Assembly (NCBI GenBank): GCA_029834535.1
Contig: JAQMWT010000340.1
Span: forward strand, 1 to 64,000
From: Chrysophaeum taylorii
Lineage: Eukaryota; Sar; Pelagophyceae; Pelagomonadales; Pelagomonadaceae
DNA length: 64,000 nucleotides
Direction of reading: 5' to 3'
The notes under the pieces were generated by a model. It ran no database searches, had not been told where the DNA came from, and saw only the letters and a program-made list of their open reading frames with translations. Below are positions 1-62,709 of the stretch, piece by piece. A program made the translations under genes and the position numbers. Within the stretch, counting starts at the first letter, position 1; every line of letters starts with the position of its first letter.

Positions 1-1140
1 TCAGTGTACTTCGTTCAGTTACGTATTGCTCAATGTGAAGGGTAGTCGTTGCCGGTGGTCGTAAACGTGAAGCGGGGACCAGGGCGTGTGTCGTTGGGGA
101 CGCCGGCTTCGTCTTTGATCCAGGTGGCGAGTTCGAGGAGGCGGTCGGTTACGACGCGGAGGAGAACGTAGCGCGTTCCGTTGGAGTGGAGGGGGTGGCG
201 TTTCGAAGGAGCATGACGGGCATGCCGACCTTGAGTGTGAGTTCGTGGGAGGCATGCCGCTGGGCGTGAGGAGTTCAAGAATTCGATGGGGTAGAGGACG
301 GGGTCGTCCTCGTATGCGACTTCGTTGGCCGAGTGGAAGGTGTGGACGGTGGAGCCGGGAAGGTCGCGGTCATCTCGGCGTTGTAATGGTCGACGTTCGA
401 GTTCTTGGGCGTGAGAACCGCGCGTTCGAAAAGCCACGCGGGGTCGTCGAAGCGGGCTTCGCCGTAGACGCGGGCGGTCAAGTCGGCGGGCTGTCGACGT
501 GGGGCACGTGGGTGCCGAGGTTGATCCAGTCGTCGCCGAGGGCGGGCTCGGTGGGCAGCGTGCCGTTTCCGACGCGGAGGAGGAAGTCGGCGAACTGTTG
601 AGGTCGACTTGGTCCTGGCCGCCAGACATTTTGACGCGCATGTTGACGGTGAGCTCGCGGACACGAACGTGGGCCCAGACGGGCGCGTTCTTGATGCAGG
701 CGCCGACGATTTCGTACCGGCGGCCGCGCTTGACGATCGGCGTCTGGCGGAAGTCGCCGAGGAAGACGATGACCTTGCCGCCGAAGGGCGCGTCGGTCAT
801 GAGGATGTCGCGCAGCGTGCGGTCCACGGTCATGAGCGTGTCCTTGTTCGTCATGGGCGCTTCGTCCCAAAATGAGCTTGGCCTTGGTGAGGACGTCGCG
901 GGTGCGGTCCTTCTTGTTTCTCGTGACGTTGCAGACGCTCGTGTCGGACGTTGAGCGGGATCTTGAAACGCGAGTGCGCGGTGCGGCCGCCCTGGAGGAG
1001 CGTGGCGGCGATGCCGGAGCTCGCGGTGGCGAGCGCAACGTGGTGGCGTTCGCGCACGGCTGCGAGGTCTGGCAGAGGAAAGTTTTGCCGGTTCCCGCGG
1101 CCGCCTGTATGAAGAAGACGGCGCCGGGCGCGAGGAGCAT
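1..1140 (-). pseudogene. Helitron Pif1-family helicase domain, partial and frameshifted
   Basis: Walker A is seen as AAAGTGKTFLC around 1090. In another frame AKLIL...DEAPM, the Walker B region, lies near 855-890, followed by FLGDFRQTPIV and the VRELTVNMR block. A third frame carries ARVYGEARFDDPAWLFERAVLTPKN, continuing to about position 400. The intact order of motifs with at least three frame switches shows a decayed coding region. The late helicase motifs (the SQGQT region) are not visible before position 1, so the gene runs off the window. Pif1-like helicases unwind the nicked strand in Helitron transposition. Confidence 0.85.
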
Positions 1141-1146
1141 GGGGGA

Positions 1147-1920
1147 CTACCGGTAGACGAAGATCATGATCTCGTTGAAGGTGTCGAGCTGCGGCTGGTT
1201 GTGCTGGCGCATGCTTTCGAGGTTGCGGCGCAGGATCTCGGCGAGGGCGGCGCGCTTCTCCCGGGTGTCGCCGAAGCGGAGTTCCTCGGCGACGAACCGC
1301 GACGTGAGCTGCTCGGCCTGCGTGGGCTCGGGCAAGCCGACTTGGCGCATTGTCATGCCGGCGCCTTCGAGGTGGGCCTGGATGTCGAGGAGGGCTTCGT
1401 TCTCCATGCTCTCGTTGAGGTCGAGGTCCTGGTTCCGGTGATGTGTCCGGTACCGGCGGAGGATGTCGGTGGTAAGGGTTTTCTTCGTGGCTTCCCAGAT
1501 GGCGAAGGGGTTAGTGAGCTCGCAGTGAGTGATGAGCATGGCGAAGAGCAACCGTTGCTCGTACGCGGTGTTGGAGACCGCGGCGGCCTCGAGGCACTTG
1601 GTCCATTCGGCGTCGTCGTGGAGGAGGTTCCGCGCCTTGCAGGCTTCCTTGAAGGTGTCGTACGGCTCGTCGTTGTTTTTCCCGGGCACGATGCGCAAGT
1701 CGGAGTAGCAGGTGGGCCCGCGGACGACTGTCAGGAGGACGCGCATGTGGAAGGCCTCCTGGTTCTTGGGAGAGACGGCGTACATGCGCGCCACGGTATC
1801 CGTCGAGAAGTCGTTCTCGTCGAGGCCGAGGCGCTCGCGGCGTTTGGTGTCTCCTCTGCTTCGTGGGACCCAAGTTTTTTTGTCTGAGAACGTGTAGTGT
1901 GTGGGGAGGTCGGTGTAGAG
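1147..1920 (-). pseudogene. Helitron Rep-to-helicase linker region
   Basis: Open frame that continues the Rep sequence after a frame change near 1.92 kb. It reads LPTHYTFSDKKTWVPR, then RMYAVSPKNQEAFHMRVLL and a VRGPTCYSDLR block. These are the conserved sequences that follow the Rep domain in Helitron proteins. Roughly residues 130-387 of the open frame are real; the earlier part is out-of-frame Rep. The frame stops just before the helicase Walker A motif, which starts in another frame. Confidence 0.85.
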
Positions 1921-1921
1921 G

Positions 1922-3211
1922 ATCGTGGGGGTCGACCTGGTAGGGCTCGATGTGCTGGATGCCGTTTGCCTTGTTGGTCTTGGCGGCGTCGTTGAGGTTG
2001 AACATGGCAGTGAGCGTGGTGTCGGGGGGGGTCTGGGCGGCGATCGAGGCGTAGTAGTCGCGGAGGGCGGGGTCGTCGGAATCCTGCCAGTAGACCCGCT
2101 GGCCGTTTTCGAGGTGGACGGCGAGGTGGAAGACGGCGGGGTGCCTCGCGTGGGTTTCGTTGCCGAAGATGCGGTTGAGGGCCTCCGTCGAGCAAATGTA
2201 GCGGCCGGTCTGGTACGTCGAAATCTCGTCCAGGAGGCGGGGGTCGCGGTGGCCGCGAGACGTGTCTTGCCGGATCGTGATCGTTGCGCTGTCCGGGCCC
2301 TTGAAGACATATTTGTACAGGTAGGCGCAGACGTGGATGGTGCAGCAGATCTCGACGTTGAGGTGCGTCTTGTATTTCTTGAGGAGCCAGGGGTTGTAGG
2401 GGACGATCCATCTGTTGTCGATGACGCAGGGGCGGCCGTTTATGACCTTGGTATAGGTGCGGCCGCCGTCTTGGGGCGAGCGGCGGCGGTATTGGACGTA
2501 GTTGTCCTCCGGGACGGTCGTGTGCCGTTGGAATTCTTTGGGAAAGCGCTTGGAGCATTCTCCGTCCTGCATGCAGGGGCACGACGGGTAGTCGCGGCCG
2601 CAGGGCCCGTGGAGCATGTGGTTGACGACGATTTGGTGGAGTTCCTTTTGTCTCGGGTCGTTCGGGTCGGGGAACTCTGCGCAGGCGACCTTGTCGACGT
2701 CGTCGGCGGCGATGTCGTCTCGGCTGTCGAGGATGAGGAGGATGTGGGCGTGGGGCAGGCCCCGCTTCTGGTACTCGATCGTGTACGTGTACGCGTGCAC
2801 GCGGCCGAGGACGGAGCGCTCGGTGAGGTCGCGGAGGAGCTCGGCGAGCTTAATGTGAAAGACGCGGATGATGAGGTCGGGTCGCATGTGGGGCTCCTCG
2901 TGCTCGTAGAGTTCGGCCATGATTTCGTCCCACTTCGGGTTGCACGTGAACGTAATGAAGAATGAGGGCCTGCCGCAAACTCTGACGATGGCCATGGCGT
3001 CCTGGTAGGCGGCGCGCATCTCTCGCTGCGACCCCTTGAACGTGGACGGGAGGATGCTGCGTTTGCCCGCGTTGCCCGCCTCGCCATCCGCGACGGCGTC
3101 TTGGAGACCGAAGTAGAGATCGGCGCGCAGCTTCTTTTGGTTCCGGCGGCACCACTCGATCCGCGACACCTCCATCTTGACGGCGCCGTCGAGGAAGTAC
3201 TCGTGGCTCAA
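1922..3211 (-). pseudogene. Helitron Rep (HUH endonuclease) domain
   Basis: About 430 residues in one open frame. The HUH motif is present as GLPHAHILLIL (His154 and His156 counted from 3211), and the tyrosine motif as AYLYKYVFKG (Tyr297 and Tyr301), the paired tyrosines expected of Helitron Rep. FITFTCNPKWDEI and KRFPKEF are further conserved Helitron blocks. Rep makes the single-strand nick and transfers the DNA end during rolling-circle transposition. The catalytic residues look intact, but the frame shifts upstream (about 3.2-3.4 kb) and downstream (about 1.92 kb), so the full protein is not made from this frame. Confidence 0.92.
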
Positions 3212-3434
3212 GCGGTTGAGGCGGTGGATGAGGGAAAAAACGTGGAGGGCGAGGGCCAGTACCGGCGAAGTGTTGTTGTTGCGTCTCTGTTGGTCTCGCT
3301 CTTGGTCTCTCTGTTGGTCTCGTCCTCGGGGCCGGCAGGTGGTTTGTCCGGGTTTTGGCGCGCGGAGGTGCGCGCGATAAACGTAATATTCCTTTGGCGT
3401 GATGGTGGTGAGGCGGGCGGTCCCGTCCTCGGGG

Positions 3435-8115: not shown

Positions 8116-8120
8116 GAAGA

Positions 8121-10124
8121 CAAGTGCAGGCCAGTAAGTTCACCCACTCCCAATCTCTAACCCCAGTAAGTTCACCTGGTCCCAGTAAGTTCACCTAGTC
8201 CCAATCTCTAACCCCAGTAAGTTCGGCGTAAGCCCACTCGTGCTCACATCCACTCACCCCACTCTCCTTCGAGCTCGTCGCTCTCGCCTCCGCCAACCTA
8301 AGCTGCTTTGGTCCGCACGCGCCGCCAACCTTTGAGTTTACTCTAAAAACCCTTTACTCTGAAAACCCCAGTATGTTCACCTGGTCCCAGTTTCACCTGG
8401 TCACTCAGTCCACCTAGTCCCAATCTCTAACCCCAGTAAGTTCACGTGGTCCCAGTAAGTTCACCTATAGTGCGCGTGTAGACGCCGGGAGGGGGCTTAT
8501 CGGCATTGCGCAGCACGTGTGGGGTAGGGCGGAGTCGTCGACCCAGAAGAGGATATCCTCGGGGTTGCCGATCGACAGAGAGCCACGTCGAGCTGGACGT
8601 GGCAGAAGACGGGCTTCGCCAAGAGGACGCCGACCTCGCGGGACGTCTGGCCCTGGCTCTTGTTGATCGTTTGGCGTGGGCGGGCCTTAAGCGATACAGG
8701 TTGGAGGAGCCTCGGTGACAACGACACGATCGATCATGTATCTGGTACCGTTGCAGTGGCCGTGCGACGGGTCGAGGTTGCGAAGACATTAAGCTCGCGA
8801 TCAAAGTCAGCATGCCGTTGGTTGTCAGGGAGTTCAAAACTCTACTGTAAAGAGCGAGGCGTCGTCTTCCGACCCAACCTAGTCGGCCGAAAAGAACTCC
8901 GACGCCTCGTCTCCGGGAAAAAAAGGCCGCGGTCATGCGCGCGTTGTCAGCATCGACAACATCGTTTCGACGGGGCGTGAGAATGGCGCGCTGAAAGCGC
9001 CGCCGCGGGTCGTGGAAATAGTCTGCGAGGTCGCCGTAGACGGCTTGGAGGATCACTGTCTGGCTCTCGCGCCTACCTGATCCTTACTCTCGCGCCTACC
9101 TGATCCTTACCCTAAATCGAGGGACAAGTGCAGGCCAGTAAGTTCACCTAGTCCCAATCTCTAACCCCAGCAAGTTCACCTGGTCCCACTAAGCTCACCT
9201 GGTCAGTAAGTTCACCTAGTCCAAATCTCTAACCCCAGTAAGTTCGATGTAAACCCAATCGTGTTCACACAAACTCCTTTGAGCTCGTCGCTCTCACCCC
9301 CGCCAATCCAAGCTGCTTTGATCCGCACGCGCCGCCAACCCTTGAGTTTACTCTAAAAACCCCAGTAAGCTCACCTGGTCCCAGTAAGTTCACCTGGTCA
9401 CTCAGCTCACCTAGTCCCAATCTCAAACCCCAGTAAGTTCACCTGGTCCCAGTAAGTTCACCTACAGTGCGCGTGTAGACGCCGGGAGGGGGCTTATCGG
9501 TATTGCGCAGCACGTGTGGGGTAGGGTGGAGTCGTCGACCCAGAAGAGGATATCCTCGGGGTTGCCGATCGACAGAGAGCCACGTAGAGCTGGACGTGGC
9601 AGAAGACGGGCTTCGCCAAGAGGACGCCGACCTCGCGGGGCGTCTGGCCCTGGCTCTTGGTGATCGTTTGGCGTCGGCGGGCCTTAAGGGATACAGGTTG
9701 AAGGAGCCTCGGTGACAACGACACGATCGATCATGTATCTGGTACCGTTGCAGTGGCCGTGCGACGGGTCGAGGTTGCGAAGACTTTAAGCTCGCGATCA
9801 AAGTCAGCATGCCGTTGGTTGTCAGGGAGTTCAAAACTCGACTGTAAAGAGCGAGGCGTCGTCTTCCGACCCAACCTAGTCGGCCGAAAAGAACTCCGAC
9901 GCCTCGTCTCCGGGAAAAAAAGGCCGCGGTCATGCGCGCGTTGTCAGCGTCGACAACATCGTTTCGACGGGGCGTGAGAATGGCGCGCTGAAAGAGCCGC
10001 CGCGGGTCGTGGAAACAGTCTGCGAGGTCGCCGTAGACGGCTTGGAGGATCACTGTCTGGCTCTCGCGCCGACCTAATCCTTACTCTCGCGCCTATCTGA
10101 TCCTTACCCTAAATCGAGGGACAA

Positions 10125-10159
<35 letters not shown>

Positions 10160-11160
10160 AACATCTGTCGATTAGTAGTTAGGACAACTGCAGGCCAGTA
10201 AGTTCACCTATCTCTAACCCCAGTAAGTTCACCTGGTCCCAGTAAGTTTCACATAAGTTCACCTGGTCAGTAAGTTCACCTAGCTCACACCAACTCCTTT
10301 GAGCTCGTCGCTCTCGCCTCCGCCAATCTAAGCTGCTTCGATCCGCACGCGCCGCCCACCTTTGAGTGAGTTTACTCTAAACACCCTTTGCTCTAAAACC
10401 CCAGTATGTTCACCTGGTCCCAGTTTCACCTGGTCACTCAGTTCACCTAGTCCCAATCTCAAACCCCAGTAAGTTCACGTGGTCCCAGTAAGTTCACCTA
10501 TAGTGCGCGTGTAGACGCCGGGAGGGGGCTTATCGGTATTGCGCAGCACGTGTGGGGTAGGGTGGAGTCGTCGACCCAGATGAGTATATCCTCGGGGATG
10601 CCGATCGACAGAGAGCCACGTAGAGCTGGACGTGGCAGAAGACGGGCTTGGGAAAGAGGACGCCGACCTCGCGGGGCGTCTGGCCCTGGCTCTTGTTGAT
10701 CGTTTGGCGTAGGCGGGCCTTAAGGGATACAGGTTGGAGGAGCCTCGGTGACAACGACACGATCGATCATGTATCTGGTACCGTTGCAGTGGCCGTGCGA
10801 CGGGTCGAGGTTGCGAAGACTTTAAGCTCGCGATCAAAGTCAGCATGCCGTTGGTTGTCAGTGAGTTCAGAACTCGACTCTTGAGAGCGAGGCGTCGTCT
10901 TCCGACCCAACCTAGTCGGCCGAAAAGAACTCCGACGCCTCGTCTCCGGGAAAAAAAGGCCGCGGTCATGCGCGCGTTGTCAGCGTCGACAACATCGTTT
11001 CGACGGGGCGTGAGAATGGCGCGCTGAAAGAGCCGCCGCGGGTCGTGGAAACAGTCTGCGAGGTCGCCGTAGACGGCTTGGAGGATCACTGTCTGGCTCT
11101 CGCGCCGACCTAATCCTTACTCTCGCGCCTATCTGATCCTTACCCTAAATCGAGGGACAA

Positions 11161-11195
<35 letters not shown>

Positions 11196-12603
11196 AACAT
11201 CTGTCGATTAGTAGTTAGGACAACTGCAGGCCAGTAAGTTCACCTATCTCTAACCCCAGTAAGTTCACCTGGTCCCAGTAAGTTTCACATAAGTTCACCT
11301 GGTCAGTAAGTTCACCTAGCTCACACCAACTCCTTTGAGCTCGTCGCTCTCGCCTCCGCCAATCTAAGCTGCTTCGATCCGCACGCGCCGCCCACCTTTG
11401 AGTGAGTTTACTCTAAACACCCTTTGCTCTAAAACCCCAGTATGTTCACCTGGTCCCAGTTTCACCTGGTCACTCAGTTCACCTAGTCCCAATCTCAAAC
11501 CCCAGTAAGTTCACGTGGTCCCACTAAGTTCACCTATAGTGCGCGTGTAGACGCCGGGAGGGGGCTTATCGGTATTGCGCAGCACGTGTGGGGTAGGGTT
11601 GAGTCGTCGACCCAGAAGAGGATATCCTCGGGGTTGCCGATCGACAGAGAGCCACGTAGAGCTGGACGTGGCAGAAGACGGGCTTCGCCTAGAGGACGCC
11701 GACCTCGCGGGGCGTCAGGCCCTGGCTCTTGGTGATCGTTTGGCGTCGGCGGGCCTCAAGGGATACAGGTTGAAGGAGCCTCGGTGACAACGACACGATC
11801 GATCATGTATCTGGTACCGTTGCAGTGGCCGTGCGACGGGTCGAGGTTGCGAAGACTTTAAGCTCGCGATCAAAGTCAGCATGCCGTTGGTTGTCAGGGA
11901 GTTGAAAACTCGACTGTAAAGAGCGAGGCGTCGGCTTCCGACCCAACCTAGTCGGCCGAAAAGAACTCCGACGCCTCGTCTCCGGGAAAAAAAGGCCGCG
12001 GTCATGCGCGCGTTGTCAGCATCGACAACATCGTTTCGACGGGGCGTGAGAATGGCGCGCTGAAAGAGCCGCCGCGGGTCGTGGAAATAGTCTGCGAGGT
12101 CGCCGTAGACGGCTTGGAGGATCACTGTCTGGCTCTCGCACCTACCTGATCCTTACTCTCGCGCCTACCTGATCCTTACCCTAAATCGAGGGACAGACAA
12201 ACAAACAAACAAACAAACAAACAAACAAACAGACAAACATCTGTCGATTAGTAGTTAGGAAGCGAGGCGTCGGCTTCCGACCCAACCTAGTCGGCCGAAA
12301 AGAACTCCGACGCCTCGTCTTCGGGAAAAAAAGGCCGCGGTCATGCGCGCGTTGTCAGCATCGACAACATCGTTTCGACGGGGCGTGAGAATGGCGCGCT
12401 GAAAGAGCCGCCGCGGGTCGTGGAAATAGTCTGCGAGGTCGCCGTAGACGGCTTGGAGGATCACTGTCTGGCACTCGCACCTACCTGATCCTTACTCTCG
12501 CGCCTACCTGATCCTTACCCTAAATCGAGGGACAGACAAACAAACAAACAAACAAACAAACAGACAAACAAACAGACAAACATCTGTCGATTAGTAGTTA
12601 GGA
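8121..12603 (-). mobile_element. Head-to-tail array of short Helitron derivatives, minus orientation
   Basis: Five units in tandem: 8121-9124 (lacks the extreme 5' end), 9125-10184, 10185-11220, 11221-12260 and a partial unit 12261-12603. Full units are 1.04-1.06 kb; units 2-4 are almost identical. Each unit on the minus strand starts TCCTAACTACTAATCGACAG, has a (TGTC/TGTT)n stretch, then a remnant of the C-terminal end of a Pif1 helicase (AILTPRRNDVVDADNARM in one frame, TINKSQGQT and PVFCHVQLYVALCR in another), then GTGAACTTACTGG minisatellites, and ends CCTGCACTTG. The helicase piece is split over two frames and cannot encode an enzyme. These are internally deleted, non-autonomous Helitrons. 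The flanking bases on the element strand are A before the 5' end and T after the 3' end. Confidence 0.85.
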
Positions 12604-19968: not shown

Positions 19969-22125
19969 TCCTAACTACTAATCGACAGATGTTTATCTGT
20001 TTGTTTGTTTGTTTGTTTGTCTGTCTGTCTGTCTGTCTGTTTGTCCCTCGATTTAGGGTAAGGATCAGGTAGGCGCAAGAGTAAGGATCATGTAGGCCCG
20101 CGAGTCAGCCATTGATCCTCGAAGGCGTCTACGGCGACCTCGCAGACTATTTCCACGACCCGCGGCGGCTCTTTTAGCCAGCGCGCCATTCTCACGCCCC
20201 GTTGAAACGATGTTGTCGATGCTGACAACGCGCGCATGACTGCGGCCTTTTATTCCCGGAGACGAGGCGTCGGAGTTCTTTTCGGCTGACTAGGCTGGGT
20301 CGGAAGACGACGCCTCGCTCTTTACAGTAGAGTTTTCAACTCCCTGACAACCAACGGCATGCTGACTTTGATCGCGAGCTTAAAGTCTTCGCAACCTCGA
20401 CCCGTCGCACGGCCACTGCAACGGTACCAGATACATGATCGATAGTGTCGTTGTCACCGAGGCTCCTCCAACCTGTATCCCTTAAGCCCCGCCGACGCCA
20501 AACGATCAACAAGAGCCAGGGCCAGACGCCCCGCGAGGTCGGCGTCCTCTTGCCCAAGCCCGTCTTCTGCCACGTCCAGCTCTACGTGGCTCTCTGTCGA
20601 TCGGCAACCCCGAGGATATCGTCTTCTGAGTCGACGACTCCACCCTACCCCACACGTGCTGCGCAATACCGATAAGCCCCCTCACGGCGTCTACACGCGC
20701 ACTGTAGGTGAACTTACTGGGACCAGGTGAACTTACTGGGGTTGGAGATTGGGACTAGGTGAGCTGAGTGACCAGGTGAACTTACTGAGACCAAGTGAAC
20801 TTACAGGGGTTTTTAGAGTGAACGCAAAGGCGAGCGGCGTGTACGGATCAAAGCAGCTTAGATTGGCGGAGGTGAGAGCGACGAGCTCGAAGGAGAGTGG
20901 GGTGAGTGGATGTGAGCACGAGTGGGCTTACACCGAACTTACTGGGGTTAGAGATTGGGACTAGGTGAACTTACTGGGGCCAGGTGAACTTACTGGGGTT
21001 AGAGATTGGGACTCGGTGAACTTACTGGCGAACTTACTGGCCTGCACTTGTCCTAACTACTAATCGACTGATGTTTGTCTGTCTGTTTGTTTGTTTGTCT
21101 GTCTGTTTGTCCCTCCATTTAGGGTAAGGATCAGGTTGGCGCGAGAGTAAGGATCAGGTAGGCGCGAGAGCCAGACAGTGATCCTCCAAGCCGTCTACGG
21201 CGACCTCGCAGACTATTTCCACGACCCGCGGCGGCTCTTTCAGCGCGCCATTCTCACGCCCCGTCGAAACGATGTTGTCGATGCGGACAACGCGCGCATG
21301 ACCGCGGCCTTTTTTTCCCGGAGACGAGGCGTCGGAGTTCTTTTCGGCTGACTAGGCTGGGTCGGAAGACGACGCCTCGCTCTTTACAGTAGAGTTTTCA
21401 ACTCCCTGACAACCAACGGCATGCTGACTTTGATCGCGAGCTTAAAGTCTTCGCAACCTCGACCCGTCGCACGGCCACTGCAACGGTACCAGATACATGA
21501 TCGATCGTGTCGTTGTCACCGAGGCTCCTCCAACCTGTATCCCGTAAGGCCCGCCGACGCCAAACGATCACCAAGAGCCAGGGCCAGACGCCCCGCGAGG
21601 TCGGCGTCCTCTTTCCCAAGCCCGTCTTCTGCCACGTCCAGCTCTACGTGGCTCTCTGTCGATCGGCAACCCCGAGGATATCCTCTTCTGGGTCGACGAC
21701 TCCACCCTACCCCACACGTGCTGCGCAATACCGATAAGCCCCCTCCCGGCGTCTACACGCGCACTGTAGGTGAACTTACTGGGACCAGGTGAACTTACTG
21801 GGGTTGGAGATTGGGACTAGGTGAACTGAGTGACCAGGTGAACTTACTGGGACCAAGTGAACTTACTGGGGTTTTTAGAGTGAACGCAAAGGCTAGCGGC
21901 GTGTACGGATCAAAGCAGCTTAGATTGGCGGAGGTGAGAGCGACGAGCTCGAAGGAGAGTGGGGTGAGTGGATGTGAGCACGAGTGGGCTTACGCCGAAC
22001 TTACTGGGGTTAGAGATTGGGACTAGGTGAACTTACTGGGACCAGGTGAACTTACTGGGGTTAGAGATTGGGAGTAGGTGAACTTACTGGCCTGCACTTG
22101 TCCTAACTACTAATCGACAGATGTT

Positions 22126-22156
<31 letters not shown>

Positions 22157-23165
22157 TTGTCCCTCGATTTAGGGTAAGGATCAGGTAGGCGCGAGAGTAA
22201 GGATCAGGTAGGCGCGAGAGCCAGACAGTGATCCTCCAAGCCGTCTACGGCGACCTCGCAGACTATTTCCACGACCCGCGGCGGCTCTTTCAGCGCGCCA
22301 TTCTCACGCCCCGTCGAAACGATGTTGTCGATGCTGACAACGCGCGCATGACCGCGGCCTTTTTTTTCCCGGAGACGAGGCGTCGGAGTTCTTTTCGGCT
22401 GACTAGGCTGGGTCGGAAGACGACGCCTCGCTCTTTACAGTAGAGTTTTCAACTCCCTGACAACCAACGGCATGCTGACTTTGATCGCGAGCTTAAAGTC
22501 TTCGCAACCTCGACCCGTCGCACGGCCACTGCAACGGTACCAGATACATGATCGATCGTGTCGTTGTCACCGAGGCTCCTCCAACCTGTATCCCGTAAGG
22601 CCCGCCGACGCCAAACGATCACCAAGAGCCAGGGCCAGACGCCCCGCGAGGTCGGCGTCCTCTTTCCCAAGCCCGTCTTCTGCCACGTCCAGCTCTACGT
22701 GGCTCTCTGTCGATCGGCAACCCCGAGGAGATATACTCATCTGGGTCGACGACTCCACCCTACCCCACACGTGCTGCGCAATACCGATAAGCCCCCTCCC
22801 GGCGTCTACACGCGCACGGTAGGTGAACTTACTGGGACCACGTGAACTTACTGAGGTTTGAGATTGGGACTAGGTGAACTAAGTGACCAGGTGAACTTAC
22901 TGGGACCAAGTGAACTTACTGGGGTTTTTAGAGTGAACGCAAGGGCTAGCGGCGTGTACGGATCAAAGCAGCTTAGATTGGCGGAGGTGAGAGCGACGAG
23001 CTCGAAGGAGAGTGGGGTGAGTGGATGTGAGCACGAGTGGGCTTACGCCGAACTTATTGGGGTTAGAGATTGGGACTAGGTGAACTTACTGGGACCAGGT
23101 GAACTTACTGGGGTTAGAGATTGGGACCAGGTGAACTTACTGGCGAACTTACTGGCCTGCACTTG
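19969..23165 (+). mobile_element. Head-to-tail array of short Helitron derivatives, plus orientation
   Basis: Three full units: 19969-21050, 21051-22100 and 22101-23165. Each starts TCCTAACTACTAATCGAC(A/T)G, carries a (TGTC/TGTT)n tract, the frame-split Pif1 helicase remnant (from VYGDLADYFHDPRRLFQR on) and GTGAACTTACTGG repeats, and ends GGCCTGCACTTG. Junctions between units are exact (CACTTG|TCCTAAC), as expected from rolling-circle copying past the end. The base before the first unit is A and after the last is T. Units are the same family as at 8.1-12.6 kb and 61.5 kb. Confidence 0.85.
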
Positions 23166-23186
23166 TCTGATTCTAATGGCAATTGA

Positions 23187-26165: not shown

Positions 26166-26552
26166 ATACAAAAATGTACCGTACTTGTGGCGGTTCTAAA
26201 AAAAATGTTCCCGACCCTCGGACACTGGGGGGTACTCACCGACACGCCGGAGAGCTCTACACTCGAGGTAGGCTCGGGCTTGGGGGTCGGCTTCGCGTCG
26301 CCACACAACTTGTTCACGCTCGCCAAGCCTCTCAACCCGAGGCTGGCTAGTTGCTTTATGATAACAAGATACTCTTGACAGAGAAAACAGTGTGACGTAG
26401 TGTCACAGAAACAGAATGACATCACTCGACATCACAAGGAAAATGGGAAAAGGCGACGCGTTGAGAGGGGGCTAAGCCTCGAGAAGAGGGGTAAACCCTA
26501 GGGAGCAGGAGTTGCCGCCACAGGACTCCCCTAGTGAGAATATGAGCTGCCC

Positions 26553-28441
26553 TCAGCGAGTGGCCCGGCGAGAATCACGGGCCTTGGCTGATTGAGCATC
26601 TCTCGAATGGATTTTCTTGTAGACACGCGTGATGACGCGTTCAGGAACGCGTCCGCTGCGCAAAGTAAACTTGGGAATCAACACATCGATCTCGTGCGGA
26701 GCGAAGTCGGTGACACAGGGAGTGGTACTGTTGGTGACCTTGGACTTGTCGGTGAAACTGCGACCGTCCACGTCCTTGTACTCCGGCTTGAGCTTGCGAG
26801 TAGAGAGATGTGAGATTGGCTTGTAGTAAGAAACCTTGTCATACGGACCGAGATCAGAGTAGAAATGCAAAGCTACTCGATCGTTCGTGTAATCATAAGG
26901 TTCATAAACTTCAGCAACGTAAATCTTCTTGCGCCAATCGGACCGTTTGCGATCGGGGATTCGGAAGACAACAAACGTACCGTGCTTAAAATCGTCCCGG
27001 AAAGTCTCCTTGGGCTTAGGCACGGCTCGATCGACCACTGGAGGAACCATCACAGGGGTGATCTGACTAACATGAACACAACGTCGCTCGGGCGGAGAGT
27101 CGAGAGATTCAATCCTGTAGGTGACTGGAGACAGGCGTTCCACGATAATAAACTGGCCGCGTCATTCTGGTCGAAGCTCGTTCTGTAGAAAAAGAATGTA
27201 GAGCAAAACATGCGATCCTTCCTCGTACTCAACATCGACATGGTCAGCATTGTAAGCAAGTCTTTGCTTCTTGAGAGCTTCCTCACGAGGCTCATTCACA
27301 GTTCCGGTGCAGAAGTTCAATTTTTCGCGAGTTTACGCCACAACATCGGAACGAGTTTTCGGCAGGCGTCTGGCGTCGAGATCCATGATCGTATAATCAG
27401 TCGGCAACAGAGGCTGACGATTGAGACGAAGCATAAACGGAGAGATCTCTGTACCCGGAGCGAACTTGCGATTGTAGCAAAATGCGATGTACTCTGCAAA
27501 ATCGGGCCAGTCCGTGATGTTCCTATCGTGAAGACACGCACGGAGAAAGGCCTTGATAAAGCGGTTGACCCGTTCAGCCGGATTTGACTGGGCATGATAC
27601 GGAATCGTAGTCTGATACCGAAGGTTGAAGAGGCGACAAAACTCTTCAATCAATTATAGTTGACGAACTCTTTTTACAAATTGTCGGTACGTATCATCAG
27701 AGGCAAATACCCCTCGAGCAATATATTCGCGACGAAAGACTCGAGGATTGCCTCCGCCGTCTTGTTGTACAGCACGTCGAGAATCAGGAAAAGAGAAAAT
27801 GGATCGAAAAACACAATGAGGTGCGTCTCTGGACCAGCACTGGGCAAAGGCCCAAACAAGTCCATGCATAGAACAGCACAATCGCCATCGTACACAGGCT
27901 GTTGAAGGAGACCAGCTCTCTTGGGTTCTGGCGTGCGAGCTTTCTTACACACCAAACAAGCAGCAATGTAGGCGCCCACTTCGTAAGACATGTGGGACCA
28001 CCAAAAACGTTCAAGTATCGATTGCACCGTACTGTGACGACCCATATGACCACCGTTGAGAGGGGTGTCATGGTAAAGTCGGATGATGCGCGGCCGTAAG
28101 GTCTGGGGAGCGACTATCATCGGGTGCAAATCGGGGGCGGCACGGTAGAGGACTCCCTTCACCACTTGAAGGCGAGTGTTAGCACCGTACCGACGAAGAG
28201 AATGGCCCTGAGCCATGCGATAACGAATGTCTTCGCTCGTAGCATCAGTGGTCTGTTCTTTGGCTATATCTTCCAATGTCAAATTATCCGGGATCTTGTC
28301 GATGTACTCTTGGTAATCATCGGCGTCTCGGAAGATACTCGGCTGGGATCGTAGACGATTTTTCTGGCGTTTTCTCGTAGCATGAGACGTAGCTAACTGC
28401 ATCGGATCGTCGCGAAAGTCTTCTTCTTCTTCTTCAGGCAA
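26553..28441 (-). pseudogene. Retroelement integrase and C-terminal extension
   Basis: The integrase has an HHCC zinc finger (GGHMGRHSTVQSILERFWW, CLVCKKA), the catalytic core (MDLFGPLPSAG, then IPYHAQSNPAERVNRFIKAF) and the usual RLSPVTYRIESL and VHVSQITPV block after it. About 120 further residues (VVFRIPDRKRSDW, YVAEVYEPYDYTND, VALHFYSDLGPYD) resemble a small chromo/Tudor-like beta-barrel, which in related elements may read chromatin. Broken copy. Confidence 0.85.
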
Positions 28442-28459
28442 CTCAGTCGTGATATACGA

Positions 28460-29609
28460 CTAAATGACATGACATCCAGCTAGTGGTACTCGTTCGTCAA
28501 CAATGGGCCGAGGCACTCCTTGGCACACCAAGTAAGCATGGTTCAAGGGCTCACCAAACTCGTCCGTCTCGATGACGTGATCGATAGGATTGCGAGAGAG
28601 GCAGTCAGGGATACTCATTCCCGGTGACTTCCCTGGTTTGTAGCCCAGTTCAGGATCAAAGTTGGCAAGTCGCAACGACCATCGAGCCAGTTGCCCAGAT
28701 GAGTGCGTCGCCTTCCGCAGAAACGTCAAGTTGCGGTGATCCGTCTCGAGGACCGTTTTATGCCCTTCAATACAAGAGCGAAAATGTTCGAGAGAGAGAA
28801 TAACTGCAGTAGCTCCAGCCGACGGGGCTCATAGCTCCGCATCTCCTTCGGCACCGCCCGGCTCCAATACTCAATCACTCGCTCTTCTCGTGTTACCTTT
28901 CCGGTGTCGTCTTTGACTTCCACGAGTTGGAAAAGATACGCGCCCAGGCCATCTTTGGAAGCATCCGAGCGGATCTGAAAAGGAAGATCGTAGTCAGGGT
29001 GGTAGACTCCGCGAGAGTCCACTAAAGCTTCGATGATCGTGTCCCACGCCTTTCGGGCGTCCACTTGAACGTGACACCCTCGAGACACAGCCGTCTCAAC
29101 GGTTCCACAATCTTCGAATAATTCTTCACACATCGGCGGCAATAGTTGCTCATGCCAATGAAAGATCGAATCTGGGTCTTCGGAGACGTATTCGGCAGAG
29201 TTCCGGGGATCGGCATCTGCTGCAACGCTTCCAACGTCTTAGGATTCGGCTTTAAGCCTTCCGGAGTCGAAATGTGTCCCAGAAACTCGATATCTTCTTT
29301 GAGGAGGTGAAATTTTGCTGTTCGTCCACTATATCCTCTTTGTGCTAGGTGGCACAGTACTTCAATCAAGACTTACAAGTGACGATGGAGGTCATCCGAT
29401 CCCATCACAATGTCGTCGACAAACGCGACCAAGTCCGCGTACATCCATTTCGATAAATCGCTGGCCATCTGCTTGCAGAAGAGAGCTCCTGCTGTCTTCA
29501 CTCCCAGAGGCAAGCGCAAGAAACTGTGTGCTCCGAGTGGGCTAACCATCGTGACAGCGTCCTGAGCGGCGGTGTCCAAACGAAGGTTGTGGTATCCAAA
29601 AAGGCCCAA
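28460..29609 (-). pseudogene. Retroelement reverse transcriptase and RNase H parts
   Basis: The RT palm carries LRLPLGVKTAGALFCKQM and FVDDIVMGSDD, followed by the thumb (FHLLKEDIEFLGH, IRSFIGMSNYCRR) and the RNase H start (FQIRSDASKDGLGAYL, EYWSRAVPKEMRSYEPRR). These are typical Ty3/gypsy blocks. The region is broken into several open pieces. Confidence 0.9.
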
Positions 29610-30411
29610 GCGTATTGCACGCAGTGGGTCAACATCAACTTCGCATCTTCATCTAAATGCGGATTGTCGGGTATTCCTAGTTCTTGAACGACTCTCTCGA
29701 CTTCTTCTTCTTTCGTCGGGATTTTGACTTTCATCGCTTCGTTCTGTTTGACGTGCTCAGGAGTCTGCGGCAGCCGTACTCCATTCGTATCGCGCGGCGC
29801 ATGTTTCCACGGCACATCGAACTTTTCTTCGTATTTGAATCTCACTTCAGCATGGCTCTTATTGATCTTTGCTCCTTTGTCAGGCTTTGATGCGCACACT
29901 CGGTTCGCTCCTCACTTTCGGCTCCCGATCTGGCTCAGGATCCGGCGGAACGTCCAGTTTTGGTTGTGGGGGGGGGGGGGGCAGCAGAAGAAGTATGAGC
30001 CGTCCCCGGCGCATCTGTTGGAAGCGGAAGCAAAGATACTTCTGGGGGTTTCCATTTGGTGCTATCCTGGAGATCTGTTGTTGACACCCACTTAGCGACA
30101 CGGTTGCGCGTATTCAATAGCGGAAGCTGTACGCGACCACGGGCGGTGTCGGTAATTCGCAGATACTGCTCAGAGCGTCGATCTGTAGGGCTCAACGCGG
30201 TCGGCAAGACTTCGCCAATTTGACGGGCGTCTCTGGTCACGGAGTTGTGCAGATCGAGCGCTAGAATTGCAAGCGTGTCTAGGGGCACGATGGACGCCAA
30301 GTGTTTGAACGAGGCTGTCTTGGACAAGCCGGCCCAATCATAATCAAGAGGCATCGTGAGCAACTCTGCTGTCATTTTGAGAATCAAAGGCCGAGCGTCC
30401 AAACGGTGGGG

Positions 30412-31077
30412 TTATATGCGGAGAGGAACCCGCGTAACGGTGTAAGCCGTATCCGTAGCTTCTCGGGACGAGCCTAAATTGTTCAGCTGGAGCAGGCTTC
30501 GTTCATCTTCGTGACCCAAAGCTGCAGCGAATTTTTGGTGCATGTTCGCACAAGTCTTGTGAGCTTCACGCAGGAGCAGCGGGTGACTGGAGACCAACAA
30601 CCGCACGCGACAGCTCATCAAGTTGGGCGTAAAGTCGTGAAAAAAATTTACAACGCACACGTAAGGGTGTAAACGCGCAATGTAGGTAATAATCGAAGCC
30701 TCTTGCTCAATCAACCACATCATGAAGCCAGCCATTCTGCACAGCTTCATAGTCCAGTGGATGGCCGAGACTCCCTCGCCGACATCACTGGACGTCAAAT
30801 TACAGAGTGCTGAATGAACGCAGGGCGGGGACGCGATACACATCGACGATGACCATTCCGCTTCCGGCAAATAAGCCTCTATCAATCGAAGGGCCGTTGA
30901 ATAGAGTCCACAGAGCGTGCGCTGAACCACCAGCACCATCGGAAAATTCTTATGATGGATCTTGTTGGCAGCTTCTGAAGAGTCAAGAGCGAGGACGACT
31001 CGGAATGACGCCCCGCACATCTCGTTCGCTCGTCGCAGCCCTAAAGTACAGCCTCCGGCGCCGCTGAATAGCATCAC
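30412..31077 (-). pseudogene. Cytosine-C5 DNA methyltransferase domain inside the retroelement
   Basis: A 221-residue frame with the motif order of C5 methyltransferases: motif I (LFSGAGGCTLGL, AdoMet binding) at the start, an acidic/aromatic motif II region (VVLALDSSEAAN...NFP), motif IV with the catalytic Pro-Cys pair (ASPPCVHSA), a motif VI-like W-x-IE, and a motif VIII-like stretch ending CRVRLLV. The SPPC-x-x-S form of motif IV recalls virus- and retroelement-borne methyltransferases more than host DNMT1 or DNMT3; this is inference. The family methylates carbon 5 of cytosine in DNA. The target-recognition part is very short. It sits between protease-linked and reverse-transcriptase sequences on the same strand, so it appears to belong to the element. 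Confidence 0.75.
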
Positions 31078-32186
31078 AACCTTGCGATACGTGATCGGCA
31101 GCCATTGAGCTTTTTCATATCTTCGGCGAATCTCGCCTTCTGTGGCCTCTCGGCACGTTTTTCATATCTTCGGCGAATCTCGCCTTCTGTGGCCTCTCGG
31201 CACTTCTTTTCTTCTTCGTCGGATCGTCGGTCGAAATCATCGTTGCCAGGCGATCTTTGACGGGAGGTCACGTCCTTTTCGGCGGAGTGGGCCGTCTTTT
31301 GTACCGAGCTCAAGAGCATCGGTGAGGGGACTGCGTCGCATTGCGTCATATGGCTTGCGACCGAAACAGTGAACGACAGGTTCGCCTTATCGCAGGTTGC
31401 TTCACAGCCCTTCGTTAACTCTTCGACCGTAGAGACGTTCAACTCGTCCTGGTAACGAACAATGTCGCCGAGTGCGAGTACTTCACCTTGAGTAACCACG
31501 GTTGGCACGTCTTGGGTGGATGAAATCGCCACGCGCGGGCGGCTGACTTGTCGTGATCCTCGCAAGAAGATCACATTCCATCGACTACCCCTAACTGCTC
31601 GTATCCAGAGGACGTAGCAACAAAAAACTTGCCCGTCTTCCAAGGGCTCTGAAAGTGTGACTGCTGGTGCGCTGTAAGTGCGTCCAGGCTCGACCTTCAT
31701 CGTGCGCGCAGCGTAGGCAACCACTTCATGGGCAGTGCTGCTCGAAACTCAAGAAGGAATAACGGTCGAGACTCCCCAGGTCGTCGAAGCTACCGCTCGT
31801 TCTGGCGGTGGACGATGGAGGTCTCTAATCGTGCACAAGCGAGCGTAATCGCGATCCTCGACCGTGCTCAGGCTCTGCCTCATCGCGGGGTGCTGGGTGC
31901 CGCAAATCGGAATATACCACGGGGTTGCGCGCTCATAAGTCGACCTGAACGTTAGGACAGGGGAATCGACTCGTTGATCCCGCACCTTTAACCATTTGCG
32001 TCCATATGCGATTTGCGTGCGGTGCAACGCAATGCGATTGTGTGGGTACTCCACCACGGCTCCCAACACTCGAATGTCGCGCGCTCCTAATAAAAACAAA
32101 TGATTCGTATCAGCCACGATGGCAAATACCGGAATTGCAACCGCAAGAGCAAAACTCGCAACGCGACCCATTAATGGATAGTCGTA

Positions 32187-34742: not shown

Positions 34743-35291
34743 TTATGAGAGGACGCGGGCGTCGCGGTCCCATCTTGCCCGGTAAGCGGGCTCGTTATCC
34801 GAAAAGAACATCTGGCCGACGCCGTGGCGCTCGTCGTCCTTCCACTCCCCGACGTACTTGACGCCGTTGGGCCAGACGTACTCGCCCTGGCCCTCCATTT
34901 TGCCGGCGCGGTACTCCCCCGTGTACTTGGATCCGTCGGGGTAGGACATGACCCCCTGGCCCTCCTTGCGGTTATTCTTGAAGCCGCCCTCGTACCTCGT
35001 CTCGTCGCGGTAGACGAAGACTCCGTACCCATCCTTGGCGCCCTCCTTGTATTCGCCCTTGTACATAGACCCGTCGGCAAAGTAGTACTCCCCGTAGCCG
35101 TGGCGCTGCGACCGGACAAAGGAGCCTTCATACCGTGACCCGTCGGGGTGCCAGTACGTCCCTTTGCCCTCCATTTCTCCGTGGCGCACCTCGCCCTCGT
35201 ACTTATCGGGACGCAGAAACCACGTCAACGTCATCCATTTCGCCTCCCCCGTATCCTTCTTCGGCGCTGAGCATTGTGTCGATTCGACCAT
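34743..35291 (-). CDS. MORN-repeat protein
   Basis: 182 residues from the ATG at 35291. About six MORN repeats follow one another from residue ~30: [80 protein letters not shown] and [20 protein letters not shown] repeats form extended beta-hairpin rods, often in ciliary (radial-spoke) or membrane-associated proteins; no other domain is present, so a specific role cannot be given. It is soluble, without signal peptide. It is divergent from the GMP reductase gene, with 78 bp between start codons. Confidence 0.9.
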
Positions 35292-35369
35292 CGTTGTTGT
35301 CTCTCTCTCCTCCTGCTCGAGGGTAATTGTTATGTCAACCACCACCACACTCCCAACAACGGTCGTCGC
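35292..35369. promoter_or_regulatory. Very short bidirectional promoter region
   Basis: Only 78 bp lie between the ATG of the MORN gene (minus) and the first in-frame ATG of the GMP reductase gene (plus). Both genes must share this interval, or their promoters overlap coding sequence. No TATA box is evident. Confidence 0.5.
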
Positions 35370-36572
35370 ATGTTCAACGCGCGATGCGCGCGGGTCGTGG
35401 GTCTCGGGGGCGCCGCCTCAGCCTGGATGATAATGTCGCGGCGGCCCGCTTTCTCCCTGCGGGTCGAAGACGACGTGAAGCTTGACTTCAAGGACGTGCT
35501 GATCAGGCCGAAGCGGTCGACTCTGAGATCGAGGTCGGAGGTGTCGCTGGAGCGGGCGTTGGTGACTCGGAACTCGCAGCGCGAGGTCCGGTGCGTGCCG
35601 ATCGTGGTGTCGAACATGGATACCGTCGGGACCTTCGAGATGGCATGCGCCCTCGCGCCGTCGGGGGCTCTGGTGGCGATCCACAAGCACTATAACCTGG
35701 ACGAGTGGCGAGAGTTCTCGCGTCTCCACCCCGACGTGAGGAACGTGATGGTCTCGGCCGGGACCGGTGCCGGCGACCTCGCCAAGCTCGACTCGATTCT
35801 AGCGGCGTGCCCAACGGTCACCACGATCTGCTTGGACGTTGCGAACGGCTATTCCGAATTTTTTGTCGAGGTCGTCTCGGCCGTCAGGGAAAAGTGGCCC
35901 CGCCACGTCATCGTCGCGGGTAACGTCGTCACCAACGAGATGACCGAGGAACTGATTCTCAAGGGCGCCGACATCGTCAAAGTCGGGATTGGCCCTGGCT
36001 CCGTCTGCACGACCCGGAAGCAGACCGGCGTGGGGTATCCGCAAGTCTCCGCGGTCGTCGAGTGCGCCGACGCTGCCCACGGCCTGGGCGGCCACGTCAT
36101 CGCCGACGGCGGCATCACCTGCCCCGGAGACGCCGCGAAGGCCTTCGGGGCCGGCGCCGACTTGGTCATGTGCGGCGGCATGTTCTCTGGAACCGACGAA
36201 AGCGCCGGCGAAGAGCGCGCGAGACCCGACGGTTCGCGCGTCAAGCTCTTCTACGGCATGTCCAGCTCGACGGCCATGAAAAAGCACGTCGGCGGTGTCG
36301 CCGAGTACCGCTCCAGCGAGGGAAAGACCGTCGAGGTCCCCTGCAAGGGCCCCGCCGCCGACGTCGTCCAAGATCTCCTCGGCGGCCTGCGCTCCGCCTG
36401 CACCTACGTCGGGGCCCGCTCCATCAAGGAGATGCCCAAGCGCACCACCTTTGTTCGCGTCTCCCAGCAGCTTAATACCTTCTTCGGCACCCACGACCTT
36501 TCCAAGCAGCACCAGGCCGGTGGTGGTGGTGCTGCTGCTGGTCCCGCCCCCGCGAAGGGGCCCGCGTCGTGA
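35370..36572 (+). CDS. guaC: GMP reductase
   Basis: 400 residues from the ATG at 35370; later starts at 35427/35433 give the usual family length of about 345-380. The extra N-terminus ([19 protein letters not shown]) lacks acids and might be a targeting peptide. Family blocks: [53 protein letters not shown] with the catalytic Cys, [19 protein letters not shown] and [12 protein letters not shown]. The enzyme deaminates GMP reductively to IMP with NADPH, linking guanine and adenine nucleotide pools. The ending is a Gly/Ala/Pro-rich tail. IMP dehydrogenase was considered, but there is no CBS module and the GMPR-type active-site loop and FYGMSS block fit GMP reductase. Confidence 0.95.
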
Positions 36573-59065: not shown

Positions 59066-61517
59066 AAAGGAAAGAAAAGGAAGGAAAGAAACCTTCTGCT
59101 ATCTTTTTTACCGCACCCCGCTCTCTTCGAGGCGAAGGCCTCCTCCTTTTCATATTCATAACGCGCGCCTTGTTGTCACTTCCTTTCATCTTCTTCTTCT
59201 TCGTGACGACGTGTGAACTCCCCTCCGTGTTTTGCTTACTGTCCGCGACGAAGATCCGAGCGGCTCGAGTCCACGCGAGTCGACCTTCTCCTGCCCGCCA
59301 CTTCGAGAGATGCTATGCCCACTACCACGCTTATTCGACTCACTTCTCGCTGTGCCGCTACTTTCTCGCCAACCTCCCTCGGGATCGATATCGATATCGA
59401 TATCGATCGTCCCCCGTTTTCTACGCTTCTTCTTTGCGCTCTGTCTTTTTGAGCAAGAAGTCTCCACCGTGCGCGAGGCGTAGGGTGTGGGGAACGTGAT
59501 GCTCTTTTAACGTCAGCCTCGGCGCAGATTTGGTACCCGCGGGTTCGAAGCGTGGCATCCTGCTCCTGCACCGCCCGCGGGTGAGCCCGGCAGTAGTCGT
59601 CGTGGCGTCGGTGATCACTCCTGGGCTCCTACCGACTCCTTATTCCCGATAGTCGCTCCGAGGACTGCGGCCGCCACTCATACTTCTTTTTACCTTAATT
59701 AATAAGAAGACCCGCGATGGCTTCTGTCATGGTCCGTTTATCTATCTGTTGTGCAAGATGGAAGGCACGGCTAGGGCGTTCGTTGGGTGTGCCCCTTGCC
59801 TTTAAATGTCGACTGCTAAGAGGGGGGGGTGTGTGTCGAGAGCATGAAGGACTGAGGGTGGGTTTGTGGGGTATGAGGGATGTGCCTGCCTGACGCGCCC
59901 CTTGTCTTTAAATGTCGACTGCTAAGAGGGGGGGGGGTGTGCCCCTTGTCTTAGTTTGGATAAATAAATAAATATCCAGGTTTCTCCTCCTTGGAGGATA
60001 TATGTCCGGCGGACAAATAGATACCATCCTCCTCCTCGACGCACATCACGATCATCACCACCGTGTCGGCCTAGCTTTGTTTGCCACCTACGGCTCCCTC
60101 TCCTGTGTGCGGCAACCGACCGCTGTCGTGGTGGCCCTTGTTTTTCTTCTCCCTCTTCGCTGCTTTAAAAGCCATCACACCATATTCTTCGAGTTTTTTG
60201 TTTTTTTTCTCTGCGATCATCCAATAATATTCTAGCTCGTTGAGCCTCGGAGTTGCTTAAAATGACATTGTCGCATATTCCGAGTCTAATACTAACATAC
60301 CCTTTTTGTCGCGGCGGTTTGGGCTAAGAGCTTGTTGTTCTCAGCATCGCAGTCTTCACCTGGCCCCGCCGTGCGCGCCGCCTTTTTTTTTGTAGTTTGC
60401 TATTCATATTCAAACCCCTCGCGCGGCCTGCTGCTTCGGGCGAGGCACCTATAGCCTTCTGGAGCGTAAAAATGCGGCGAGCCGAGGGACTGCACGGGCG
60501 GCCCCATTACATTGTTCGGGAGGAGAGAGGTTCACCGCGCGTCTTTCTTGGAGAAACAGATATACGTCATGTCCGCTGACGCTGATTCTCGCACATCCCG
60601 TCTCTAGCCTGTCGGCGCTTGTTTTGCATGCTTATTTGGCGTAAAGCCATGCGTCGGTTACGTCCAGCCCCGAGGCGACGTCTAGAATTTTCAGCTCCTT
60701 CGCTCGCCTCCGCGGTGCACGCGGCGGCGTCGTTCCGTTCCCTTCTCGCGGCCATGCTTTGCCCCTCCGACGGCGCGCGGCAGCGCGGAGGCGGGCGTCG
60801 CGAAGCTTCGTCGCGGGCGAAACCCTTCGGTAGGTTGCTGCACCTCCGGCTACGCGACGGCCGCCCCTTCTTCCGTCAGCAACTGGCGCCTGGCGGACTC
60901 TGCCCGTGTTTGCCATCACGATCTCGTCCTACGCGCGCGGCGATCGCCATTGCTGAGTGCCTGCCACCCTTTTCGCAGCCATACCAGCAGGTGGCCAGTA
61001 CTGGTGGTCGCCGGGGTCGAAGTCAGAGGCTGACGTCGGGTACACCAGGACACCATCGGACTCTTCATATGTACCATCTTAGGCGCTCCCGTTCCTTTTT
61101 TTCCTCGGCCTCGTCGTCGTCGGCGTGTGGTCCGACGTTGAGTTCAGCAACGCCGATGGCCGCGTCAAGCGCGGTTGGTGTAATAACCAGTTCGGGCGGT
61201 CATAGCGCGTGCGAAATTCATCGAGCCAATTGCGCGACCACTAAGAGTGCATGCGGGCGTCCAAGTGGACGTCAATGACGGAAGCGCCCGCGAAGTTCGT
61301 CCTCGACGCCTGCCAGCAGCACGTCGGCGGGCGCCTGGTTCAAAATCTGAAAGAGGAGAAGATACCTCGTTGACGTTGAAGTCTTGCCCATGTTGAGCTC
61401 CCTCCTCCACGTTGGGGCCCTCAGCTGGCCCAAAATCCGCTTCAAGGTGCATCATATTGCTCCACGCAGCTCTCCAAGCGGCTCGCTCGAACAAGCGAAC
61501 GAACTTGGGACTTATTA
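59066..61517. other. Long intergenic region with repeats; no supported gene
   Basis: (ATCGAT)n palindromic repeat at 59384-59408. A 46-bp block (GCCCCTTG(C/T)CTTTAAATGTCG plus ACTGCTAAGAGGGGGGG) occurs at about 59788 and 59895, with a third partial copy at 59940. AT-rich unique DNA follows to 60400. Plus (60619-61278) and minus frames overlap at 60.6-61.3 kb without known domains. On the minus strand near 61.2-61.3 kb short protein-like stretches suggest a decayed gene, but I cannot name it. Confidence 0.5.
59788..59952 (+). repeat. Direct repeat, ~107-bp period
   Basis: Two near-identical 46-bp copies ending in G8 to G10 and a partial third. They stand in otherwise unique sequence. Confidence 0.8.
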
Positions 61518-61542
61518 TCCTAACTACTAATCGACAGATGTT

Positions 61543-61577
<35 letters not shown>

Positions 61578-62562: not shown

Positions 62563-62709
62563 TTATTATTAAGACCATCGACCGACGCAGCTAAAACGTG
62601 GCTAGAGGCGAATGGCGCCAAAGAATCCGTGCCCAAAGCCAAAATCGGAGCGGGAGAAGCGCCGGGGAGGCAAGACGAAGCCTGCGCACAAGTTTAAGCG
62701 AAATCGGCG
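62563..62709. other. Spacer, start of a possible short frame
   Basis: An ATG at 62612 opens a Lys/Arg-rich frame (MAPKNPCPKPKSEREKRRGG) of 79 codons that runs into the gene below in another frame. No domain recognised; less likely than the spliced reading starting at 62710. Confidence 0.4.

Follow-up and report, generated by a model that had tools for sequence, protein, structure and literature searches.

A C5 cytosine methyltransferase domain within Ty3/gypsy retrotransposons of Chrysophaeum taylorii

Introduction

As a rule, cytosine methylation is a means of silencing transposons; elements that keep a cytosine methyltransferase (MTase) of their own reverse this relation. Retrotransposon-borne MTases are rare and so far known from few organisms. 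The window analysed here, a 64,000-nucleotide stretch of a Chrysophaeum taylorii contig, contains what a preliminary description took to be a C5 DNA methyltransferase inside a decayed Ty3/gypsy element. This locus raises the question of whether the enzyme belongs to a retroelement lineage or strayed into one old copy, and what it might do for an element that carries it. In this study, we followed the domain through the window, the genome and the protein databases. We are nearly certain that the element carries a maintained MTase domain, and we regard it as evenly balanced whether element DNA is the substrate. The explanation as a whole, a captured MTase maintained in Pol by selection and acting on element cDNA, is in our judgement moderately probable.

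Results

The methyltransferase domain in the window

A C5 cytosine MTase domain with motifs I-X is encoded at 31161-30241 on the minus strand of the window, as seen by PF00145, TIGR00675 and our alignment A1. The motif names and definitions (I, FxGxG; IV, Cys nucleophile; VI, ENV; VIII, QxRxR; X, GN) are those of the standard C5-MTase set. The minus-strand ORF 30415-31161 is open and ends at a TAA at 30412-30414, beyond which the same frame continues to about 30241, adding motifs IX and X. The preliminary description, which placed the enzyme at 30412-31077, was right about its identity and wrong about its extent: the real domain runs from 31161 in frame to about 30241, and therefore the earlier interval cut off motifs IX and X. 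Relative to open copies elsewhere in the genome, the window MTase has this single in-frame TAA and one codon more, and its domain is 78% identical to that of an open copy over 307 columns.

Taken alone, the window copy is a borderline MTase match. The ORF 30415-31161 reaches PF00145 at E 0.0013 and 18.7 bits, below the curated cut-off of 22, and NCBIfam dcm (TIGR00675) at E 0.001 and 18.8 bits, far below its cut-off. The ORF also matches the PDB weakly: to DNMT2 chains, to 3g7u, to a further cytosine MTase, and to two chains of an unrelated transporter. Its relatives in the same genome score higher against PF00145: the domain of the open copy L031 gives 25.8 bits, and that of L076, from a second gypsy lineage, 38.2 bits with motifs IX-X matched too, both above the cut-off of 22. 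Through these two domains, the profile search upholds a C5 DNA methyltransferase at this site.

The retroelement relic and its surroundings

The MTase sits inside a 5'-truncated Ty3/gypsy relic at about 32165-26328 on the minus strand. The neighbours are arranged as had been claimed, all on the minus strand, with the protease side upstream and RT, RNaseH, H2C2 finger and integrase C-terminus downstream. The C-terminal protease region and the spacer to the MTase occupy 31158-32165 (tblastn 58% over 342 columns, L031 residues 878-1209). Following the MTase, a broken stretch at 29594-30240 holds the MTase-RT linker and the start of the RT region (tblastn to L031), and 28771-29600 holds a frameshifted RT, with its VDD box, and RNaseH (PF00078 below cut-off, PF17919, PF17917; tblastn 82-93%). 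The integrase and C-terminal Pol lie in two frames at 26568-28807, with an H2C2 zinc finger and an integrase p58 C-terminal domain (PF17921, PF22938; tblastn about 80%), and a 3' LTR remnant ends the relic at 26328-26522 (blastn to the LTR of an element on contig C5, 69.6% over 207 columns). In the window, the Pfam match to RT is under its cut-off at 18.1 bits and those to RNaseH, the H2C2 finger and the integrase C-terminus are above theirs; the rve core has a Pfam match in the open copy L031 only. Frame changes fall in RT, RNaseH and integrase, there is a gap within RT, and about 120 RT residues found no match by tblastn. The DNA match to the open copy stops at 32123-32125, and upstream of about 32165 neither a gag nor a 5' LTR was matched by tblastn or blastn against that copy.

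The surroundings of the relic include an IMPDH/GMP reductase gene at 35274-36569 on the plus strand and a six-repeat MORN protein at 34746-35417 on the minus strand. A repeat of about 1.05 kb, with copies roughly 87-96% alike, forms arrays and inverted copies at 8119-12260, 19969-23168 and 61515-62563. Pieces of it also occur within the stretches L031 and L033, and its ORF resembles a piece of a PIF1-type helicase by eye, with no Pfam match.

Family-1 copies across the genome

The genome searched spans 697 contigs and 70.8 Mb. With the window ORF as query, 150 of 915 candidates were scored, and all 150 match at 77% identity or more. The 306-residue L031 domain gave 129 scored candidates out of 1026, again all matches, and the matched stretch is stop-free in 104 of the 129 by a hand count in which some stretches are partial. 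These copy counts may include alleles, because some contigs look near-duplicate: on C10/C297 and on C6/C268, matches lie at nearly equal positions, suggesting duplicated or allelic contigs.

Contig C5 has two copies whose frames stay open for 3063 and 3067 codons. The domain order was read in one of them (L031), which begins with an N-terminal region and a protease-like stretch and continues with the MTase, RVT_1, RT_RNaseH, H2C2, rve and p58_C in that order. The ordered domains from RVT_1 to p58_C confirm a Ty3/gypsy host element, and the order protease-MTase-RT, which the preliminary description had proposed to look for elsewhere in this genome, is present in L031 with the protease read by eye from the IGVDGMADVSYI stretch; a Pfam search of L031 returned no protease and no gag hit. 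Its LTRs (TGTGGCG...CGCCACA) are 341 bp long, 98.2% identical and bound 10.3 kb. A purine-rich stretch precedes the 3' LTR in one C5 copy, and no evident target-site duplication flanks the one C5 copy inspected. The frame before the protease holds a gag-like stretch in L033 and a different sequence in the C5 copy. Judging from their sequence, the C5 copies may be non-autonomous.

The association with reverse transcriptase was also followed from the RT side. An RT/RNaseH search scored 77 of 1481 candidates. For 46 of the 77, a scored MTase match lies on the same strand no more than 1.5 kb upstream, and in 37 of these cases the distance is 506-515 bp. This pairing used the 129 MTase matches minus 24 (mostly lower, B-type), none of which lies near an unpaired RT. 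Among the 31 unpaired RT matches, upstream DNA was fetched for five, and all five contain MTase sequence that is frameshifted, truncated or partly inverted. The pairing of MTase and RT thus recurs and is not peculiar to the window.

A second gypsy lineage and a derivative lacking the methyltransferase

A second gypsy lineage carries an MTase domain 41% identical to that of family 1. In a search with the RT_RNaseH_2 family, 150 of 628 candidates were scored, and the upstream DNA of three was read: L075 is a B-type copy whose MTase survives only in its C-terminal part, the MTase of L074 is split over two frames and about 42% identical to family 1, and L073 is an L074-type element without the MTase. 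The N-terminal 200 residues of the L074 domain have at least 151 matches in the genome (150 of 753 candidates scored), and among the matches listed the lowest are family-1 copies. The start and end of the 3' LTR were found in four copies of the second lineage.

Eight further domains of this lineage were taken, of which L081 (frame-broken) and L082 (with a stop) were excluded from alignment A3. Its 16 rows are six second-lineage domains and ten family-1 domains chosen from 31. Across A3, motif I keeps its glycines, motif II its Asp, motif IV its Cys, motif VI its Glu and motif VIII its R-x-R, all without variation. Motif I reads F-x-G-A-G-G in A1 and A3, and motif IV reads SPPC, with SPSC in one of the 16 rows. 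Motif VI has EQ rather than ENV, motif VIII lacks the leading Gln, and motif X has AS or GS rather than GN; because of these departures from the canonical motifs, MTase activity is not assured. All 16 rows match PF00145, with a best E of 6.6e-10, and no other Pfam family at E <= 0.1.

L073 and L074 are 98.7-99.2% identical on either side of a 1107 bp gap, which removes the MTase from L073 except its first residues, plus some 180 bp after it. The exact deletion junction (L073 1143-1300) occurs at four places in the genome, on contigs C209, C248, C335 and C394. All four copies share the 3' sequence to the LTR end, ...ACA, and then diverge into different DNA; C209 and C394 share 196 bp further out at unequal distances, as a dispersed repeat. 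Splicing was considered as the cause of the junction and rejected, there being no GT-AG at its edges. Four copies with distinct flanks fit one deletion that was later copied, and the MTase-less form appears to have inserted four times, alone or helped in trans. Since this derivative occupies four separate sites, the MTase is dispensable in cis.

Selection and methylation footprint

Selection was estimated as Nei-Gojobori dN/dS on 28 of the 31 family-1 domains, placed in groups A, B and C (L012, L018 and L030 omitted), with 22 and 11 usable copies for the two flanks. For the MTase, dN/dS between A and B is 0.048 (156 pairs; dS about 2, saturated), and it is 0.084 for A-C, 0.145 for B-C, 0.14 within A and 0.09 within B, low values being favoured here because the copies were picked by MTase protein similarity. 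Among the C copies, which are the three oldest, window included, it is 0.31. The protease side gives 0.17 for A-B, 0.41 for A-A and 0.61 for C-C, and the linker with the RT start gives 0.12 for A-B and 0.45 for A-A. So, between subfamilies, the MTase is conserved at least as strictly as the neighbouring regions compared. In the second lineage, dN/dS between its two branches is 0.073-0.102 (8/8 pairs); within branches it is 0.20-0.85 on few changes (7 pairs), L076 vs L078 giving the 0.85.

Any methylation footprint in the sequence is weak and mixed. With base composition unmatched, three family-1 copies show no CpG depletion, their observed/expected ratio being 1.29-1.35 vs 1.25-1.43 in four window stretches outside the element. 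On the same unmatched basis, the window relic has a ratio of 1.16 and a copia copy one of 1.00; six second-lineage domains range over 0.98-1.12, and L073 and L074 give 0.98-0.99. In groups A and B, transitions occur at CpG about twice as often as at other C/G; in group C they are lower, with no excess.

Class and source of the enzyme

The A3 profile, run against 5.8 billion proteins, found five hits (P0001-P0005; E 1.3e-3 to 9.9e-3, each marginal alone), which are PF00145 proteins of about 300 residues. Three align with the domain at 23-25% identity over about 90% of the query and two at 30-34% over about 30%. In a profile-profile comparison, A3 and these five match with Prob 97.6 and E 3e-12 over 263 columns, from motif I to X. 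They share the full motif order I-X with the element domain, but are free proteins with canonical ENV, QxRxR and GN, and they read like bacterial or phage sequences. Neither a protein search with the first alignment, in which 8000 candidates were scored, nor one with a longer piece (2785 scored) gave a hit. Against the PDB, the A3 profile matched no DNMT3 or DNMT1 chain at E <= 10; its only hits, 3g7u, 8yf3 and two DNMT2 chains, are all weak, at E 0.3-1. No Dnmt3 affinity was detected for the gypsy MTase, which apparently belongs to another class. A structure prediction of the domain (one model) has a mean pLDDT of 36.7 and is uninformative.

The genome has two host-like MTase genes, L035 and L036, which we read as DNMT2-like and DNMT5-like (the latter with a RING at E 0.23 only). 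As donors they were rejected, L035 matching weakly (Prob 28) and L036 not at all, both compared as single sequences. A viral origin was likewise set aside, as two scans of IMG/VR contigs, each with two short peptide patterns, gave no confirmed relative. A chlorophyll a/b-binding protein adjoins L035; presumably it has a plastid leader with an F motif, which points to a photosynthetic eukaryote, perhaps one whose plastid is of the red-type complex kind.

A copia family with its own methyltransferase

A genome search with the PF00145 family scored 123 of 474 candidates and gave 57 matches, mostly of another family. Thirty of the 57 loci were cut, L035 and L036 being the host-like genes and the other 28 aligning to one copia MTase. 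This MTase has L-P-C in 28/28 copies and ENV in 27/28 (ENA in L041), motif I is degenerate, and six copies contain stops. In L051 and L067, a protease-like DGGAS is followed by the MTase, an insert, a motif IX-X-like end, rve (weak, 18.2 bits, below cut-off) and RVT_2 (E 4e-39). By its sequence, this domain order is that of Ty1/copia. A profile comparison of the gypsy and copia MTases detected no match, and with alignments this shallow a common origin may still hold.

The copia MTase lies at 1405-3108 of L051 and is also found in L067 (contig C96). Between motifs VIII and IX, L051 has an insert of about 300 residues, at residues ~483-790 of the frame 487-3423, in which a YHLxG stretch and a His further on are conserved. 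It resembles a 2OG-Fe(II) oxygenase by eye, with no such Pfam hit.

Discussion

Our data suggest the following history. A Ty3/gypsy lineage would have taken a C5-MTase into Pol between protease and RT, probably in one old capture, before the present subfamilies split. The MTase has since been retained under purifying selection, and the window copy is decayed and 5'-truncated. During replication, the protease may free the MTase inside the virus-like particle, where it could methylate cytosines of the new cDNA, or it may act on the copy after integration. The methyl mark would then shield the cDNA or settle the new copy in a tolerated chromatin state. The MTase probably helps the element, because less damaged copies keep the enzyme well preserved. 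Three points make methylation of new cDNA our best reading: the enzyme's place within Pol, the retention of its catalytic residues, and the activity of SymbioDIRS enzymes in yeast (PMC5890265).

Alternatively, the domain could be a DNMT2-like RNA methyltransferase whose target is, for example, the primer tRNA or the element RNA in the particle, modified before reverse transcription or as it begins. DNMT2 chains lead the weak single-sequence PDB hits, a place in Pol would put the enzyme in the particle with the RNA and its primer, and de Mendoza et al. raise an RNA substrate for a LINE-borne enzyme (PMC5890265). We think this unlikely, as the clear profile match is to stand-alone C5-MTases and the DNMT2-like protein of the genome, compared as a single sequence, matches weakly (Prob 28). 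The departures in motifs VI, VIII and X, together with a derivative that does without the MTase at four sites, would also agree with a domain that no longer methylates and persists because its fold serves nucleic-acid binding, particle architecture or RT function. That the catalytic Cys, the Glu and R-x-R persist in lineages sharing only 41% identity makes such a loss improbable.

The enzyme might instead work in trans on the host, methylating chromatin or defence genes and thereby opening or closing sites for the element. 5mC may be in use in this host, because DNMT5-like and DNMT2-like genes are present (the class names being our own reading), but nothing observed points to host targets, and we hold this to be very unlikely. 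The last alternative is an accident in which a piece of a host MTase landed in a single old copy of the element; the window copy, broken as it is, would by itself fit. Chance insertion is ruled out by the 129 scored genomic matches, 104 of them stop-free; many copies, and a second lineage too, have the same domain at this position, which leaves this alternative next to no probability.

A wider and more tentative idea is possible, though in our judgement less likely than not. In it, the unrelated Ty3/gypsy and Ty1/copia elements would each have captured a non-Dnmt3 C5-MTase after the protease, in a host that attacks or ignores unmethylated cDNA; the enzyme would stamp the cDNA as self, and MTase-less derivatives would exploit it in trans. 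If true, this would parallel, in a eukaryote, the DNA modification by which phages evade restriction. In one genome, two LTR superfamilies carry an MTase at the same place, with well over a hundred scored copies. In addition, the near-identical LTR pair (seen in one copy) and the natural MTase-less derivative allow a direct comparison for the role of the MTase.

Comparison with known systems

The literature we searched, with most subscription papers and preprints outside its coverage, holds one primary report of retrotransposon cytosine DNMTs, de Mendoza 2018, and names two groups of hosts for MTase-bearing retrotransposons. The charophyte and dinoflagellate precedents mentioned in the preliminary description are those of this report (PMC5890265): they are KnitGypsy-Dnmt3, a Gypsy element carrying Dnmt3 in Klebsormidium nitens, and DIRS and LINE elements of Symbiodinium. 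Like the element described here, KnitGypsy-Dnmt3 has a C5-MTase in a Gypsy-type Pol ORF, several copies and purifying selection (Ka/Ks < 0.2 in that text). Its MTase is of the Dnmt3 class, whereas the domain here aligns with stand-alone C5-MTases and with no DNMT3 chain of the PDB at E <= 10. Its repeats are DIRS-like, whereas the element here has a plain LTR pair in the one copy examined at both ends. A 2025 paper assigns the streptophyte element to Copia, unlike the 2018 text.

SymbioDIRS-Dnmt3 and SymbioLINE-Dnmt resemble our elements in having a conserved MTase, in Pol or ORF1, in hundreds of copies, and differ in their DIRS and LINE backbones, their dinoflagellate host and a Dnmt3 or orphan class (PMC5890265). 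The same text reports de novo CG methylation in yeast by SymbioDIRS MTases and no activity there of the KnitGypsy and SymbioLINE enzymes, a result its authors call inconclusive. In orchids, too, Ty3/Gypsy elements have captured a nucleic-acid modification enzyme; theirs is an m6A demethylase domain with an RNA substrate, in a plant host (PMC9289625). Accessory domains of retrotransposons are the subject of a further paper (PMC6338049).

Because KnitGypsy-Dnmt3 is already known from Klebsormidium, the pairing of a gypsy element with a DNMT is not new in kind. What is new is, apparently, another MTase class, which points to captured enzymes other than Dnmt3 and makes the gypsy MTase look like a capture independent of the charophyte element. 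Two further features are also new: a Ty1/copia family of this genome carries an MTase of its own downstream of the protease, and four insertion sites hold a gypsy derivative that lacks the MTase.
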